64,000 nucleotides of DNA from Cyclobacteriaceae bacterium (lineage in GTDB: Bacteria > Bacteroidota > Bacteroidia > Cytophagales > Cyclobacteriaceae): contig JAIBBC010000001.1 in the NCBI GenBank assembly GCA_019694875.1, positions 930,001 through 994,000 on the forward strand, written 5' to 3'. Every line of letters begins with the position of its first letter. The stretch's first letter is position 1. The notes under the pieces are model-generated. The model was not told the origin of the DNA. It saw only the letters and a list, made by a program, of their open reading frames with translations, and searched no databases. Shown here piece after piece: positions 34,852-41,525 of the stretch. The position numbers were made by a program, and so were the translations under genes.

Positions 34852-34904
34852 GCTGTTCCACGTGAAACCTTCACTGTGGATAAAGCTTGTGGAATTGTGG
34901 AATA
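34841..34904 (-). promoter_or_regulatory. Cluster of four DnaA-box-like 9-mers in the mnmG leader
   Basis: Four tandem sequences of the form TGTGGnnnn lie in one orientation: 34841-34849 TGTGGAAAT, 34875-34883 TGTGGATAA (a perfect complement of the DnaA box TTATCCACA), 34888-34896 TGTGGAATT, and 34896-34904 TGTGGAATA. The last three sit between the two parS-like palindromes; the first lies just before parS site 1. Confidence 0.55.
34854..34869. promoter_or_regulatory. parS-like site 1
   Basis: TGTTCCACGTGAAACC differs from the bacterial parS consensus TGTTTCACGTGAAACA at two of 16 positions and keeps the central CACGTG. It is directly downstream of ybeY. Confidence 0.7.
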
Positions 34905-34909
34905 CACCA

Positions 34910-34925
34910 AGTTCCACGTGGAACT
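34910..34925. promoter_or_regulatory. parS-like site 2
   Basis: AGTTCCACGTGGAACT is a perfect 16-base palindrome with the parS core CACGTG and GTTC/GAAC flanks. It lies six bases before the mnmG start codon. Confidence 0.7.
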
Positions 34926-34931
34926 AATATT

Positions 34932-36794
34932 ATGCTGCCTGAATACGATGTAATTGTTGTTGGGGCCGGTCATGCCGGATGTGAGGCTGCTGCCGCAGCT
35001 GCCAAGATGGGCTCAAAAGTCCTGCTTGTTACGATGAACATGGCCACAATTGCCCAGATGTCGTGTAATCCCGCTATGGGCGGAGTGGCTAAGGGACAGA
35101 TTGTGCGTGAAATTGATGCCTTGGGTGGACAGTCCGGGATTGTGTCCGACAAGTCAATGATCCAGTTCCGAATGCTCAACATGTCGAAAGGACCTGCCAT
35201 GTGGAGCCCCAGAACTCAAAACGACAGGATGAGATTCGCGGAAGAATGGCGCCTGGCACTGGAGGTGATTCCGAATGTTGACTTCTGGCAAGAGATGGCC
35301 AAAGAAATACTGGTAAAGGACGGCAGGGTGGCAGGAATCAAAACTGCCCTCGGAATTGAGATAAAAGGAAAAGCCGTTGTGTTAACCAATGGCACCTTTC
35401 TGAACGGCAAGATTCATATCGGTGAAAAAAATTTTGGCGGAGGCCGAACCGGTGAGAAATCCGCGACCGGGCTCACGGAGCAACTTGTCTCGCTGGGATT
35501 TAAATCCGGACGAATGAAAACCGGAACACCTCCAAGAGTTGACGGACGCTCGCTCGACTATTCAAAAATGGAAGAACAACCAGGTGACGAGAAACCGGGC
35601 AAGTTTTCATACTCCGACACCAAGCCGCTTGAAAAGCAAGTGAGCTGCTGGATCACTTATACCAATGAAGACGTACACGCTGAACTCCGCGAGGGTTTTG
35701 AGAAGTCACCTATGTTCAGCGGAAGAATAAAAGGTCTTGGTCCGAGGTACTGTCCGTCAATTGAAGACAAAATAAACCGGTTCGCTGAACGCGACCGTCA
35801 CCAAATATTTGTTGAGCCGGAGGGATGGAATACCGTGGAGATTTATGTTAACGGATTCTCGACATCATTACCCGAAGATGTGCAGCATGAAGCGCTCCGA
35901 AAAATCCCAGGATTCGAGAATGCAAAAATGTTCCGGCCGGGTTATGCGATTGAATACGATTTCTTTCCGCCAACTCAACTGAAACTGACGCTGGAGACGC
36001 AACTTATTGATAATCTGTACTTTGCGGGTCAGATTAACGGCACAACCGGATACGAAGAGGCTGCTTGTCAGGGACTTATGGCCGGAATTAACGCTCACAA
36101 CAAAGTACACGAAAAAGACCCATTTATATTAAAGAGATCAGAAGCCTACATCGGTGTACTGATTGACGACCTGGTAAACAAAGGCACTCAGGAGCCCTAC
36201 CGGATGTTCACTTCCCGGGCAGAGTATAGAATTCTTCTTCGTCAGGATAATGCCGATTTACGCTTAACGGAAATGGGCCATAAACTCGGACTAGCCGATG
36301 ATTTCCGTCTGGAAAAACTAATCGACAAGCGAAACGATATCAATCGCCTGACAGAAGAGCTGGCAAAAATTAAGGTTGAACCGGAAACAGTAAATGCCGG
36401 ACTTGAAACTCTGAACACCTCAACCATCCAGGAAAAAATTGCCGCTGTGAATTTGCTCAGGCGCCCACAAATCAGACTGTCGGAATTCAAATCTATCAAT
36501 CCGGAAATCGCGACACTCTTTAACAAGTATTCGCAGGAGGTTCAGGAGCAGGTAGAAATCGCAGTGAAATACGAAAGCTATATCGACCGCGAACAAAAGC
36601 TGGCCGAGAAAATCGGAAATCTGGATGCATACAAAATTCTCCCGGACTTCGATTACGATAGGGTAAAAGCGCTCTCGGCCGAAGGCCGGGAAAAGTTGAA
36701 AAAGATTAAACCAGAAACCATCGGCCAGGCATCACGCATCAGCGGTGTTTCACCTGCCGACATTTCCATCCTAACTATCTATCTTGGCAAATAA
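34932..36794 (+). CDS. mnmG: tRNA uridine-5-carboxymethylaminomethyl modification enzyme MnmG (GidA)
   Basis: MnmG with MnmE modifies U34 of several tRNAs using FAD, NADH and methylene-tetrahydrofolate. From ATG 34932 the protein is 620 residues, the family length. It begins MLPEYDVIVVGAGHAGCEAA with the FAD motif GAGHAG at 11-16, and shows SCNPAMGGVAKG, the conserved PRYCPSIEDK, and the end SISGVSPADISI-like (ISGVSPADISIL). The open frame extends 15 codons upstream through parS site 2, which is not taken as coding. The stop shares one base with the next gene's ATG. In many bacteria this gene lies next to the replication origin. Confidence 0.97.
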   Translation: MLPEYDVIVVGAGHAGCEAAAAAAKMGSKVLLVTMNMATIAQMSCNPAMGGVAKGQIVREIDALGGQSGIVSDKSMIQFRMLNMSKGPAMWSPRTQNDRMRFAEEWRLALEVIPNVDFWQEMAKEILVKDGRVAGIKTALGIEIKGKAVVLTNGTFLNGKIHIGEKNFGGGRTGEKSATGLTEQLVSLGFKSGRMKTGTPPRVDGRSLDYSKMEEQPGDEKPGKFSYSDTKPLEKQVSCWITYTNEDVHAELREGFEKSPMFSGRIKGLGPRYCPSIEDKINRFAERDRHQIFVEPEGWNTVEIYVNGFSTSLPEDVQHEALRKIPGFENAKMFRPGYAIEYDFFPPTQLKLTLETQLIDNLYFAGQINGTTGYEEAACQGLMAGINAHNKVHEKDPFILKRSEAYIGVLIDDLVNKGTQEPYRMFTSRAEYRILLRQDNADLRLTEMGHKLGLADDFRLEKLIDKRNDINRLTEELAKIKVEPETVNAGLETLNTSTIQEKIAAVNLLRRPQIRLSEFKSINPEIATLFNKYSQEVQEQVEIAVKYESYIDREQKLAEKIGNLDAYKILPDFDYDRVKALSAEGREKLKKIKPETIGQASRISGVSPADISILTIYLGK

Positions 36795-37678
36795 TGATAG
36801 ATATTAAAGAATGCCCGGTTTGCCAAAGCCGGACGCTCAAGCCTTTCAGACAGTGTAAAGACTTCACCGTTTCACATGAAACGTTTCCCGTTATGCTATG
36901 CGCTGAATGTTCGCTTGGAATTACCAGCCCAAGGCCGGACTCTGAAAAACTTGGGGATTATTATAAGTCAGAAGAATACATCTCCCACTCCGGCAAATCA
37001 TCCGGATTAATGGGGCCTCTATATAAAGTCGCGCGACAATTCGCGTTAAACTGGAAAACACGAATCATAAGCCGGTATCAAAAAAAAGGGGTGGTCCTTG
37101 ATTTCGGTTGTGGAACTGGAGAATTTCTTGGTGCGCTAAAAGAAAAAGGCTGGACGACAAACGGGGTTGAACCTTCGGAACTCGCCCGGAAAAAAGCTGA
37201 AGCACATACCGGACAACCGATGCACGAATCGCTAAATGAAATAACCGGTAAAAAATTTAATGTGATCACTGCCTGGCATGTACTTGAGCACGTCCCTGAT
37301 TTAAGCGCGACCATCCAATCATTAAAGAGTTCGCTGGAAAAAGATGGCACTATATTTATTGCTGTTCCGAACTATGAATCCCCCGATGCAGAAAAATATC
37401 AAAACTATTGGGCGGGCTACGATGTGCCCCGGCATCTGTGGCACTTCTCGAAAAGCAGCATGACTAAGCTCCTGAAATCGAACGGCCTGTTTGTTGAAGA
37501 GATCGTGCCGATGAAGCTCGATGCATTTTATGTAAGCATGCTGAGTGAAAACTATCGCAACGAAAACAGATCCTCTGCATCAACACTTTTCAAAGGATTC
37601 GCTTCCGGATTACGATCCAACTTATCAGCAGGAACCGACAACTACTCCAGTTTGATCTACATCGCCAGGCACTTATGA
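36794..37678 (+). CDS. Class I SAM-dependent methyltransferase with N-terminal zinc-finger-like motif
   Basis: The 294-residue protein has an N-terminal cysteine motif CPVCQ with CAEC 31 residues on (residues 7-38), then a Rossmann methyltransferase with SAM motif VLDFGCGTGEFL (about 100-111) and post-I acidic VEPS, and a late DVPRHLWHFS. This plan is common in UbiG-like enzymes of Bacteroidota glycolipid or surface-polymer loci, but there is no such locus here and the substrate is unknown. It is coupled to mnmG by TAATG and to the next gene by a four-base overlap. A degenerate parS-like palindrome lies in its coding sequence. Confidence 0.85.
   Translation: MIDIKECPVCQSRTLKPFRQCKDFTVSHETFPVMLCAECSLGITSPRPDSEKLGDYYKSEEYISHSGKSSGLMGPLYKVARQFALNWKTRIISRYQKKGVVLDFGCGTGEFLGALKEKGWTTNGVEPSELARKKAEAHTGQPMHESLNEITGKKFNVITAWHVLEHVPDLSATIQSLKSSLEKDGTIFIAVPNYESPDAEKYQNYWAGYDVPRHLWHFSKSSMTKLLKSNGLFVEEIVPMKLDAFYVSMLSENYRNENRSSASTLFKGFASGLRSNLSAGTDNYSSLIYIARHL
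36868..36883. promoter_or_regulatory. Degenerate parS-like site 3 (intragenic)
   Basis: CGTTTCACATGAAACG keeps both GTTTCA and TGAAAC arms of the parS consensus. It has CACATG in place of the core CACGTG and changed outer bases. It lies within the methyltransferase gene, 1.9 kb from site 2. Confidence 0.35.
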
Positions 37679-39351
37679 AATTCAGATTAATCTATTTTCT
37701 ATTGCTGAGTTTCCTCGCACTTCAATGCGCCAAGCAGACTGCTCCGACCGGGGGGCCGAAAGATGAAACTCCGCCAAAGCTGCGGGAGTCATTTCCGAAA
37801 CACGAACAGATTAATTTTAAAGGTGACCGGATTGAGCTTTCTTTTGACGAGCCGATCCAACTTAATAATCCGAGAGAGCAAATCATTATTACGCCCAGTG
37901 TCGGAAAGGACTTTGATGTTACCTTCAACAAAAACAGGGTTACCATCCAACTGAAAAGCAGGCTTCAGGAAAACACAACCTACACAATTAACTTCCGCGA
38001 AGCTGTTCAGGATTTAACCGAAAAAAATCCCGCCAATGCCAAAATCGCCTTCAGTACCGGGGATTACTTAGACTCCTTACAGATCAGCGGAAAGGTGATT
38101 GATGCGCTAACAGAAGTTGCACCGAAAAGCTATACCGTTGCATTGGCAGAGTACTCCGACACCTTCAACATCTTTAAACATCCCGGAGCCTGGATAACGC
38201 AAACAGACAAAACCGGAAAATTTTCGCTCGAAAACTTAAAGCCCGGCAAGTATTTCCTCTATGCGTTTAACGACAAAAGCAAAAACCTTTTGGTCGACAG
38301 CAAGTCTGAAACATACGGCTTCATTTCGCAGCCAATTACGCTTGAGAAAAATCTGGATTCGCTTGTTATCCGGACTTTCAAAGCTGACATGAACAGGCTA
38401 AAGTTGATGACCGCAAGGCCAACCTTTGCGTACTTCATTTTAAGGTTTTCCAAAAGCCTGACAGCCTATTCAATCACACCAGTTGACAGTACAAAAAAAG
38501 TTTATGCCTCGCTAGAACCCGACCTGACAACCGTTAAGCTTTACAATACATTTCCGAACCTCGATAGTATGCAAATTAAGGTTCACGCTACAGACAGTAT
38601 GAACTTTGCAGCCGACAGCCTGATATACATGAAGTTTCCGAAGAAGGAAGCAACAAAAGATAAATTCACCAGCGGAATTGAATACGCAATATTAACTGAG
38701 AATAATTCACTGCTCACCTCACAAATCTCCTTCACAAAGCCCATAATAACGTTTACCCCCGACAGCATCTACATCAAGATCGACTCCGTCACTAACATAC
38801 CATTTTCGCCAACGGATTTCACATGGAACTACAACCGTACTAAACTTTCAATAAACAAAAAGGCTGACATATCAGTGCTCTTCCCGAAAGACACAACATC
38901 AAAAGAACAAGCAACGATAAAAGGCCCGAAGTCCGGACCACCAACACAACCGCCACAGATCGCCTTTACAAAAGCAGCTTTCATATCAGCTGAAGGCGAC
39001 ACATCCATCTCCGTCTCAACACCTATAAAATACGTAACCCTCGAATCGACCGCCATAATTGAAGCGGAGGTAAAGACAACCAAAAACTTCGTGCTTCAAC
39101 TTGTCACTAAAACAGGTAAAGTTGTTGCCGAGGTTATCAATCAGAAAAAATTCTCTTTTGAAAATCTCAATCCGGAAACGTACCTGTTGCGCCTGATCAT
39201 TGACGTGAACGGTAACGGAAAATGGGATCCGGGTAACTACCAGTCCAAAACCGAGCCCGAACCTGTCGTGTATTATCGTAACCCAAAAGGCGTTACAGAA
39301 ATATCATTAAAGGCCAACTGGACGCTCGGCCCATTGTTAATAACTTATTAA
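37675..39351 (+). CDS. Lipoprotein with N-terminal Ig-like domain
   Basis: The 558-residue product has a lipoprotein-type signal (LIYFLLLSFLALQC, Cys18). Next comes KQTAPTGGPKDETPPKL and a bacterial Ig-like (Big_5) domain at about 32-130, with IELSFDEPIQLNNPREQI and ENTTYTINFREAVQDLT. Further beta-rich regions follow, including a Cna-B-like part at about 135-215 (GKFSLENLKPGKYFLYAFNDK) and a second at 490-545 (FENLNPETYLLRLIIDVNGNGKWDPG). This is a common surface or periplasmic lipoprotein type of Bacteroidota with unknown function. It overlaps the methyltransferase by four bases and is the last gene before the presumed replication origin. Confidence 0.85.
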   Translation: MKFRLIYFLLLSFLALQCAKQTAPTGGPKDETPPKLRESFPKHEQINFKGDRIELSFDEPIQLNNPREQIIITPSVGKDFDVTFNKNRVTIQLKSRLQENTTYTINFREAVQDLTEKNPANAKIAFSTGDYLDSLQISGKVIDALTEVAPKSYTVALAEYSDTFNIFKHPGAWITQTDKTGKFSLENLKPGKYFLYAFNDKSKNLLVDSKSETYGFISQPITLEKNLDSLVIRTFKADMNRLKLMTARPTFAYFILRFSKSLTAYSITPVDSTKKVYASLEPDLTTVKLYNTFPNLDSMQIKVHATDSMNFAADSLIYMKFPKKEATKDKFTSGIEYAILTENNSLLTSQISFTKPIITFTPDSIYIKIDSVTNIPFSPTDFTWNYNRTKLSINKKADISVLFPKDTTSKEQATIKGPKSGPPTQPPQIAFTKAAFISAEGDTSISVSTPIKYVTLESTAIIEAEVKTTKNFVLQLVTKTGKVVAEVINQKKFSFENLNPETYLLRLIIDVNGNGKWDPGNYQSKTEPEPVVYYRNPKGVTEISLKANWTLGPLLITY

Positions 39352-39660
39352 GACCGTGTGGAAATCTCTCAGAGAAACCCACATCAACATCGAAAAAGGG
39401 CAAAATCCAAAAAAAGAGATTCTGGTTGTGCGTAAAAGAAGAGTTAACCACACATCAAAACATTACGTTTAATCAACATGGGTTTTGTCCACACTCACAA
39501 AAATTGTTGATATTGTTCTAACTATCTGACTAATTGGGCATTACTATAAACACGTTTTTCACACGTAACAGACAACGAAAGAGGGGTTCCGGTTATCCAC
39601 ATATCAACATGACTAATAGTAATTATAATATATATATAAATACATTAATAATAAGAGCTA
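39352..39660. other. Candidate chromosomal replication origin (oriC)
   Basis: This gene-free gap holds a cluster of DnaA-box-like 9-mers. 39593-39601 is TTATCCACA, a perfect box. 39555-39563 is TTTTTCACA and fits TTWTNCACA. One-mismatch forms are 39485-39493 TTGTCCACA, 39444-39452 TTAACCACA, 39427-39435 (TTACGCACA on the minus strand) and 39357-39365 (ATTTCCACA on the minus strand). Four boxes point the same way, toward an AT-rich tract at 39611-39657 with long runs of alternating A and T. Boxes next to such a tract are the usual form of oriC with its unwinding element. The parS-like sites 4.5 kb away support it. dnaA is not in the window, which is common for this phylum. Confidence 0.65.
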
Positions 39661-39665
39661 TACCC

Positions 39666-41525
39666 ATGTGTATGCTTCTTGTTCTTCTGTGCTTAACCGG
39701 TTATTCCCAAAATCAGAGTGAAATACAACTGGCGAACGAATATCTTTTAAAAGGCGATAAACGTAAAGCTGTTGAAGTGTATCGCGATCTTGCCAAAGAT
39801 GAGATCAACATTCCCTTTATACACAACAATTATCTTAATACGCTGCTGGACCTTAATGAAACTGCCGAGGCCCAGGCGTATTTAAAGCGCCAACTCAAAC
39901 GCGATCCACAAAACATTTTTTACAATCTTGATGTGGGCATTGTTTACGTGCGAACCGGTGATATGACAAAAGCTGATAAGCATTTTAAAGGCCTGATCGA
40001 TCAATACAAAGACAATGTGACCATGATCAAAATGCTGTCGGATTATCTTTCCACCAAGTCTCTTGGGGAGTATTCAATTATCGCGCTTAACGAGAGCCGT
40101 AAAACCCTGGAGAACCCCGTGCTTTTCAGTTTTGAACTTGCAACCCTTTATCGCCTAAAAGGCCAGCGTGAAAAGATGATTGAGGAGTATCTGAATTTTG
40201 CGAGTCAGAATTCCGGTACCATCCAGAATGCAAAAAACATGATGCAGATTCTTCTTACAAAACCGGAGGAACTTGATGCGCTCGAAAAGGTTTTGTACGA
40301 CCGTATTCAGAAATTTCCGGATGCGGATGTTTATTCCGATCTGCTTATTTGGGTAACGATGCAGCAAAAGAATTTTGGGGCGTCTTTTAACCAGGCCCGT
40401 GCTTATGACAGGAGGTACAAACGTTTTGGTGAAAAAAGCCTGGAGATAGCTAAGGTCGCGCTCGATAACGAAGACTACGAAACTGCGAGCAAGGCATATA
40501 GTTATGTAATCCGTGAATATCCCGGAGGTCCGTATTATTTGCAGGGGCAGCTTGGTCTGTTACGAACGCGCGAAGCCCGGGTAAAGAATACGTTTCCGGT
40601 AAATTCAGATTCAGTAAAAAGTCTTGCAGCCGACTACCGCAAGTTTGTTACGAAATACCCGGAGAATGCCAACTCGCTTGAAGCGCAACGGAGTGAAGCG
40701 ATGCTTTACGCCACGTATCTCGACAAAAAGGACCAAGCGATTGCATTGCTGGAAGACCTGATAAAGAATCCTAAAGTTTCGCTACAGCTTAAGTCGAGAG
40801 TTAAGCTTGATCTTGGAGATATTTATTTGCTGAAAGGCGAACCCTGGGAGTCGACATTGCTGTACTCGCAGGTTGAAAAAGCCCTGGAAGAAAATCCTGT
40901 GGGTTATGAAGCCAAGCTTAAGAATGCAAAACTATCCTACTACAAAGGCGACTTCAAACTCGCGCAAGAACACCTGGATATTTTGAAGGAAGCAACAACC
41001 CGCGAAATAGCCAACGATGCCATGGAGCTGAGCATCCGCATTAAAGAAAACCTCGTGGAAGATACGCTGGGCGAAGCGCTCAAAGCCTACGCAAAAGTTG
41101 AATTGCTTTTATATCAGAACAAACGTGAAGAAGCTCTGACTGCACTCTCACAACTTGCGAGCGGAACTTCGGCAACAACAGACTCGTCAAGGACAGGGGC
41201 TGTGTCAAGAATTTCAAACAGTGCGATTAAAGATGATGTTTATTGGCTGGAGGCAAACATTCAGATGGAGCGCGGAGAGTTTCAAAAATCTATCCAATTG
41301 TTGCAGCAAATAATCGATGAATATCCGGATGATATCCTGGTTGACGATGCATACTTCTTACAAGGCGAAATTTATGAGCGCCACTTAAGCAACAAGGACA
41401 AGGCGATGGAAATCTATCGCAACTTCCTCGACAAATATCCGGGTTCTGTGTTTGCCGCTGAGGCGCGAAAAAGATTCAGGGTTCTTCGCGGAGATTTTAA
41501 AGACACACCTGTTCCGCAAAGCTAG
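39666..41525 (+). CDS. TPR-repeat protein with signal peptide
   Basis: From ATG 39666 the protein is 619 residues. A hydrophobic signal (MLLVLLCLTGYSQNQ) is followed by many tetratricopeptide repeats, from about residue 20 (IQLANEYLLKGDKRKAVEVYRDLA) to the end (YFLQGEIYERHLSNKDKAMEIYRNFLDKYPGS). TPR proteins of this sort scaffold envelope complexes; no specific partner can be named. An ATG at 39609 would add 19 residues including one arginine to the signal, but it would make the AT-rich tract coding. The frame is open even further upstream, with no recognisable protein. Confidence 0.82.
   Translation: MCMLLVLLCLTGYSQNQSEIQLANEYLLKGDKRKAVEVYRDLAKDEINIPFIHNNYLNTLLDLNETAEAQAYLKRQLKRDPQNIFYNLDVGIVYVRTGDMTKADKHFKGLIDQYKDNVTMIKMLSDYLSTKSLGEYSIIALNESRKTLENPVLFSFELATLYRLKGQREKMIEEYLNFASQNSGTIQNAKNMMQILLTKPEELDALEKVLYDRIQKFPDADVYSDLLIWVTMQQKNFGASFNQARAYDRRYKRFGEKSLEIAKVALDNEDYETASKAYSYVIREYPGGPYYLQGQLGLLRTREARVKNTFPVNSDSVKSLAADYRKFVTKYPENANSLEAQRSEAMLYATYLDKKDQAIALLEDLIKNPKVSLQLKSRVKLDLGDIYLLKGEPWESTLLYSQVEKALEENPVGYEAKLKNAKLSYYKGDFKLAQEHLDILKEATTREIANDAMELSIRIKENLVEDTLGEALKAYAKVELLLYQNKREEALTALSQLASGTSATTDSSRTGAVSRISNSAIKDDVYWLEANIQMERGEFQKSIQLLQQIIDEYPDDILVDDAYFLQGEIYERHLSNKDKAMEIYRNFLDKYPGSVFAAEARKRFRVLRGDFKDTPVPQS

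Follow-up and report, generated by a model that had tools for sequence, protein, structure and literature searches.

Among bacteria with a described chromosomal origin of replication (oriC), Cytophaga hutchinsonii belongs to the same order as the source of the DNA studied here. Its chromosomal oriC has been used on plasmids (PMC5288383). The basal unwinding system (BUS) was described for Bacillus subtilis and is predicted in 1755 of 2070 species; it comprises a DnaA box with at most two mismatches, a second box with at most four, a spacer of up to 16 nucleotides and at least three NAN triplets (PMC8287927). The trios of B. subtilis lie on the bottom strand (PMC10201434). In Thermotoga maritima an annotated trio is treated as only supportive, and a trio motif is therefore no proof of function (PMC10316083). 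For Campylobacter jejuni, the authors propose that oriC lies partly in a coding region, a location that their 2018 article presents as unreported for any bacterial oriC (PMC6052347).

The window analysed here (the whole stretch of DNA, 64,000 nucleotides long, C1:930001-994000) comes from a genome of 4,678,476 bases in five contigs. The first-pass annotation proposed a chromosomal origin in it, a proposal supported by a sign change of GC skew, the absence of a denser cluster among the scanned stretches, and a position and architecture conserved in the order. We observe a cluster of DnaA boxes in a conserved place, a skew switch, a pair of parS sites and a conserved open frame with an ATG. The stretch is very probably a chromosomal oriC. 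We also consider it likely that two things hold jointly, namely that this is the oriC of a Cytophagales bacterium related to Chryseolinea and that its core also carries the start codon of a gene for a TPR protein. The core has the following putative parts.

39593..39601, plus strand: core DnaA box 1, an exact TTATCCACA, adjoining the unwinding element
39601..39609, plus strand: core DnaA box 2, ATATCAACA, with two mismatches to TTATCCACA; it shares one base with box 1, and its final A is the A of the proposed ATG
39613..39630, minus strand: DnaA-trio-like run, top strand CTA ATA GTA ATT ATA ATA, lower strand 3'-GAT-TAT-CAT-TAA-TAT-TAT-5' (from sequence and conservation; strand by analogy with B. 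subtilis)
39611..39657, no strand: AT-rich putative DNA unwinding element, 87% A+T, adjoining box 2

This arrangement fits a basal unwinding system, with twin boxes that overlap by one base (39593-39609) followed by a trio-like run in an AT-rich tract. Box 1 is exact, box 2 (ATATCAACA) has two mismatches, and the spacer and triplets lie within the published limits. On the lower strand, an 11-nt spacer from box 1 leads to six triplets with a central A, and the consensus triplet 3'-GAT-5' stands next to the boxes. On the top strand, TAA TAG TAA after 12 nt also reaches the BUS minimum. We assume lower-strand trios, as in B. subtilis. Conservation is compatible with either strand, and the top-strand reading may hold instead, because conservation is higher for the top-strand A of codon position 2 (0.76-0.98) than for the position-3 T (0.59-0.89). 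The first-pass annotation described a tract of about 45 bases as almost pure A and T; the tract is present, but at 87% A+T the wording was a little strong.

Compared with the published BUS oriC, the locus is alike in its DnaA box TTATCCACA, weaker tandem second box, short spacer and trinucleotide run at the AT-rich edge, with 3'-GAT-5' by the boxes. Unlike the BUS oriC of B. subtilis, it is not beside dnaA, and its core probably lies within the beginning of a gene, so that each trio triplet would match up with a codon. With the C. jejuni oriC it shares a pair of DnaA boxes that overlap by 1 bp beside an unwinding element; there the boxes in question are part of the 3' end of dnaA, next to an intergenic unwinding element, whereas here a start codon and first codons probably lie in the twin boxes, trios and unwinding element (PMC6052347). 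The origin is ordinary in kind; an unwinding core that doubles as a gene start would be the unusual part. No report of a BUS core overlapping a start codon was found among the titles and abstract beginnings listed in the literature search. Among the listed papers since 2018 with oriC, DnaA and 'within a coding region', PMC6052347 was the sole match. The location of Cytophagales origins may already have been predicted in subscription papers or in DoriC.

Upstream of the core lies a region with further boxes.

39352..39608, plus strand: non-coding part of the putative oriC, containing DnaA boxes and flanked by the Ig-like lipoprotein gene and the TPR gene (from box counts against shuffles and the like place in relatives)
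39357..39365, minus strand: DnaA-box-like site ATTTCCACA, one mismatch
39427..39437, minus strand: two overlapping DnaA-box-like sites, TTACGCACA (39427) and TTTTACGCA (39429), one mismatch each
39444..39452, plus strand: DnaA-box-like site TTAACCACA, one mismatch
39485..39493, plus strand: DnaA-box-like site TTGTCCACA, one mismatch; the close relatives L004 and L005 have TTATCCACA at the matching place
39555..39563, plus strand: exact DnaA box TTTTTCACA

The two exact TTWTNCACA boxes reported earlier, at 39555-39563 (TTTTTCACA) and 39593-39601 (TTATCCACA), were found where claimed. The earlier count of four one-mismatch boxes is fair, as two of the five that we find (39357, 39427, 39429, 39444 and 39485) overlap each other. 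The whole window has eight exact matches to TTWTNCACA against 8.0 expected, and the genome has 424 against 391 for the reversed pattern; because neither shows much excess, only the clustering of the boxes carries weight. Seven sites with at most one mismatch occur in 39352-39665, where dinucleotide shuffles average 1.28 and none of 500 reaches seven; the two exact sites in the same interval are equalled by one of 500 shuffles. The densest 300 bases of the window (about 39421-39720) hold eight boxes with no more than one mismatch, of which two fall in the coding part of the TPR gene. Runner-up places in the window have five and four per 300 bases.

The locus is also the densest among 44 scanned stretches of its own genome (912,485 of 4,678,476 bases), with eight boxes, the next having six. 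A genome scan for TTWTNCACA clusters, proposed beforehand as a check, thus revealed none denser in the scanned fifth, which included 20 kb around dnaA. Genome-wide, exact TTATCCACA is found 35 times and its reversed control 26 times; TTATCCACA forms no tight cluster anywhere, the closest pairs being C1:363600/366340 and, in the window, C1 964875/969593. The tandem pattern TTWTNCACAWWTNMACA is found exactly at two places in the genome, the core and C5:125478, and with one mismatch at 16 places against 10 in the control. Further short conserved blocks, which do not match the DnaA-box pattern, are seen in the box region in an alignment of 24 clade members, around CGTTTAATCAACA (39466-39478), TGTTGAT, CTGATAA and AATTAACG.

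The place of the cluster can be followed among relatives by the gene on its left.

37675..39351, plus strand: Ig-like (Big_5) lipoprotein gene, left neighbour of the putative oriC (from Pfam matches and the search of relatives)

This gene is present in all 39 genomes searched, our own included, and 30 loci were fetched. At least six boxes per 300 bases occur at its 3' side in 25 of the 30 fetched loci from the order; L005, L007, L015, L016 and L017 have only three to five. Loci on the minus strand were stored unreversed, so that their cluster shows near 1080-1375. A twin-box core followed by a TAATA-like run is identifiable by eye in 28 of the 30; L024 and L032, where no core was clear by eye, were left out of the core comparison.

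A matrix was built from 26 cores picked by eye, leaving out L020 and L021, and gives the twin-box core the maximum score of the window (27.9), the second score being 17.7 at 34888. It was applied to named loci, the best 80 of 105 relatives, whose titles are mostly Cyclobacteriaceae, Flammeovirgaceae, Chryseolinea, Fulvivirga and other Cytophagales. A core of at least 15 bits lies within 600 nt downstream of the lipoprotein gene, at a median of 253 nt after it, in 63 of the 78 named loci whose downstream sequence extends for 600 bases or more, and 15 score lower; because many genomes that supplied training cores are also represented among the named loci, this result speaks for constancy of place more than for independent discovery. 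The corresponding rate is 0.003 in mononucleotide shuffles, and none of 78 stretches of 600 nt inside the lipoprotein gene has such a core.

Across the phylum, 117 of the 118 Bacteroidota genomes searched, our own included, have the lipoprotein, and 28 of the 30 best loci were examined (G000 and G008 were left out). Three loci from the same family or order have 7, 9 and 8 boxes per 300 bases. The 25 loci from elsewhere in the class or phylum show no comparable cluster, with at most six boxes per 300 bases; many lipoprotein matches there are incomplete, so a 1.5-kb flank may in some cases stop short of the gene end. L235 alone among these 25 exceeds the largest of 20 mononucleotide shuffles (5 against 3), and L227, L236 and L246 equal it. 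With the other 24 within the shuffle range, we do not claim a phylum-wide origin rule beyond the order. One locus, L031 (G032), is unusually dense, with 14 boxes in 300 bases; over 4.5 kb it contains TTATCCACA exactly ten times, seven of these copies lying no further along than the lipoprotein gene's end.

GC skew was compared between sampled stretches by a one-sided Mann-Whitney test, with cut points that assume a symmetrical terminus on a 20-kb grid. The sign changes at the locus in two relatives with single-contig genomes. In G001, nine of ten stretches are negative on the left and eight of ten positive on the right (p 7e-4), with the best cut at 3.62-3.80 Mb and the locus at 3.77; in G014, 9/9 are negative and 11/11 positive (p 1e-4), with the best cut at 0.94 Mb and the locus at 0.926. 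On the contig of the window itself, nine of 11 stretches are negative on the left (one of them -0.000) and nine of 11 positive on the right (p 0.003), and an additional left-arm stretch (C1:356001) is negative. The other contigs are positive in 9/9 stretches (C3), or negative in 8/9 (C4), 4/4 (C5) and one short sample (C2). The own-genome skew is weak, and the assembly is five contigs of no established order. Within the window the cumulative skew is noisy and has its minimum near 24-25 kb rather than at 39.6 kb, so we regard the local signal as noise. The skew check proposed in the first-pass annotation is therefore clear in the two relatives and weak on the contig itself, and the minimum expected at the locus falls elsewhere in the window.

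Several features lie upstream of the lipoprotein gene.

34855..34868, no strand: parS-like site GTTCCACGTGAAAC, an exact GTTNCACGTGNAAC
34911..34924, no strand: parS-like site GTTCCACGTGGAAC, an exact GTTNCACGTGNAAC, conserved in relatives
34875..34904, minus strand: putative accessory DnaA boxes flanked by the two parS sites; TTATCCACA stands at 34875 and the tandem pair TATTCCACAATTCCACA at 34888-34904
34932..36794, plus strand: mnmG (gidA), between parS and the putative oriC

We take GTTNCACGTGNAAC to be the parS pattern. Its only two exact occurrences genome-wide lie 56 bases apart in the interval from ybeY to mnmG, 4.7 kb upstream of the core; because the reversed control has one place, the count alone is no evidence, and only pairing and conservation speak. 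The earlier mention of two parS-like sites and a second box cluster 4.5-4.8 kb upstream is confirmed, the box cluster being the weaker one. Of the 80 named loci, 70 carry one or more exact parS sites 3.6-5.6 kb upstream of the end of the lipoprotein gene; nine of the ten others are too short upstream, and L199 is not. Two or more parS sites are found in 62 named loci, at 4.3-4.9 kb upstream of the end of the lipoprotein gene, and in most loci the distance is about 4.4-4.8 kb. Exact TTWTNCACA lies between the parS sites in 12 of the 62 loci with a parS pair, where mononucleotide shuffling leads us to expect about 0.7. The mnmG, methyltransferase and lipoprotein genes are directed into the putative origin and the TPR gene out of it. 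L185, on a contig titled Candidatus Heimdallarchaeota, has a 34%-identical lipoprotein and parS at the usual distance; since both match, it is probably a misbinned Bacteroidota contig.

These observations bear on two other readings. Boxes alone cannot distinguish an origin from a DnaA-titration site or DnaA-regulated promoter cluster (datA-like), and the cluster does lie upstream of a gene start. We nevertheless consider a datA-like function very improbable, given the twin boxes, trio run and AT-rich element at conserved spacing, the skew switch in two relatives, the conserved parS pair 4.7 kb away and the conservation of the place in the order. Slightly less probable still is a true origin elsewhere, for example beside dnaA, which is on another contig (C5:92708-93193); the scan for degenerate clusters covered a fifth of the genome, and a perfect tandem-box match stands at C5:125478, 32 kb from dnaA. 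Against this, the 20 kb around dnaA (C5:85001-105000) have no stretch with at least five boxes per 300 bases, no further box accompanies the match at C5:125478 within 500 bases, and skew and parS indicate the window. An origin beside dnaA was rejected on the first two of these results.

An oriC in the window remains our preferred reading, and its right-hand neighbour is the TPR gene.

39609..41525, plus strand: TPR protein gene of 638 aa, with a signal-peptide-like N-terminus (judged by eye) and a proposed start at ATG 39609 in the core (from the open frame in same-genus genomes, the ATG position in relatives and TPR Pfam matches)

The list of open reading frames has this gene from TTG 39534, and the first-pass annotation let it start at about 39666, after a 314-base gap. 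Comparison with relatives instead suggests that it probably starts at ATG 39609, within the core, rather than at 39666. The gap would then shrink to 257 bases and the AT tract would fall inside the gene; its AT-rich end, earlier read as intergenic, is thus probably coding. In ATG 39609 the A coincides with the final base of box 2, and each trio centre falls on the third base of a codon. The predicted signal peptide start from the AT-rich element reads MTNSNYNIYIN...; in Chryseolinea serpens (L130) the product predicted from the core ATG begins MPNN....

In relatives, the frame of the mature protein stays open through the AT-rich tract into the core. It does so in all 17 same-genus genomes, our own included, although the stretch is 75-87% A+T. 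The core+16 frame has no stop over 20 codons in 15 of the 17; L018 and L019 are open in the next frame because their spacer is one base longer. The two other frames have 59 and 66 stops over the 17 genomes. Shuffled sequence gives an open frame with a probability of 0.06-0.25 per genome, and these genomes have common ancestry. Among 11 loci outside the genus, L030 alone is open in the core+16 frame, which ends before the mature protein, and L023 is open in the next.

Across the 48 loci with overlap, the ATG is at core+10 in 23, at core+16 in 21 and at both in one (45/48); in the remaining three, L139, L142 and L145, it precedes the core by 5 to 79 bases. The A of the ATG is the final base of box 2 in the core+16 type, and the ATG lies inside box 2 (often AAATGCACA) in the core+10 type, which may be why box 2 departs from the consensus.

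If the origin is placed correctly, the overlap could still be only an over-extended open frame, with the TPR gene starting downstream at ATG 39666 or 39672, as in Fulvivirga and other families. The window has both of these in-frame ATGs (core+73 and +79), seven of the 41 named loci with a core ATG have another in-frame one, and downstream ATGs are likewise present in L004 and L005, its two closest relatives. We consider this reading unlikely. In 34 of the 44 named overlap loci no in-frame ATG other than the one in the core precedes the mature region, the frame is open in all 17 same-genus genomes despite the A+T content of the stretch, and the overlap state follows the tree with two changes.

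The tree was made from the lipoprotein (83 rows, a quick method without bootstrap, unrooted count). The overlap loci form one group of 51 rows with an SH-aLRT of 99; L160 is not assessable, and L135 was counted as overlap after inspection of its core position. In 48 of the 50 assessable members of this clade, the start codon is in the core or up to 79 bases upstream, which would place the presumed opening core, not an accessory box, in the gene start. The two exceptions, L129 and L187, are sisters (99) without a core start codon, and their TPR gene starts downstream, a point in favour of the downstream start in the window as well. A downstream start is found in 32 tree rows, 30 of them outside the clade. 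Parsimony counts two changes (one without L129 and L187), and 50 label shuffles need at least 21. One gain and one loss of the overlap is the simplest fitting reading, for which an unrooted count cannot prove direction; L129 and L187 appear to have lost the core start codon and offer a natural control for comparison.

We infer that DnaA binding, melting, the start of replication and translation from ATG 39609 all take place here. DnaA would bind the box array, and, by analogy with the BUS literature, the twin boxes (39593-39609) would load a DnaA oligomer onto the trio run, and the AT-rich element would open and the helicase be loaded. ParB bound at the parS pair beside mnmG would see to segregation. 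In the clade, the core would supply the TPR start codon and the AT-rich element would be translated as the start of the signal peptide. Such dual use would open to testing the way in which DnaA, the helicase loader and the ribosome are all served by a single short sequence. The analysis further locates a probable origin with a conserved parS neighbourhood for the Cytophagales, a group for which we found few origin papers in the literature searched.

The overlap also allows the trio bases to be read against codon degeneracy, with L129 and L187 as a natural loss for comparison. The window codons after the ATG are ACT AAT AGT AAT TAT AAT; all end in T, and each of these T is one of the six trio centres. 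In 42 named overlap loci the third bases at core+21 and +24 are T 71 : C 12, against 947 : 833 in Asn, Tyr and AGY codons of the gene body (Fisher p 1e-9), for a set that is not limited to those codons, leaves out L142 and L145 and, as in all these codon statistics, is not corrected for kinship. In the same loci, Asn, Tyr and AGY codons at core+22 to +33 give T 105 : C 44 (p 5e-5), and third bases at core+27, +30 and +33 give T 81 : C 39 (p 0.002). Across 46 loci, C in the trio run is nearly limited to third codon positions, with frequencies of 0.15-0.41 at these and 0-0.11 at the others, which also counts against a downstream start, and is at 0-0.05 outside the clade (21 loci). The C pattern and the T preference fit a translated sequence under a second constraint.

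We tentatively hypothesize, with the balance against the proposal as a whole, that in this clade the DnaA box, trio and unwinding element are also the translation start of an exported TPR protein and constrain one another. Codon choice might then keep T at the wobble position and trio centre, and DnaA occupancy would block TPR transcription, tying expression to the replication cycle. L142 and L145 have in-frame ATGs 46-79 bases upstream of the core, and their DnaA boxes may themselves be translated.
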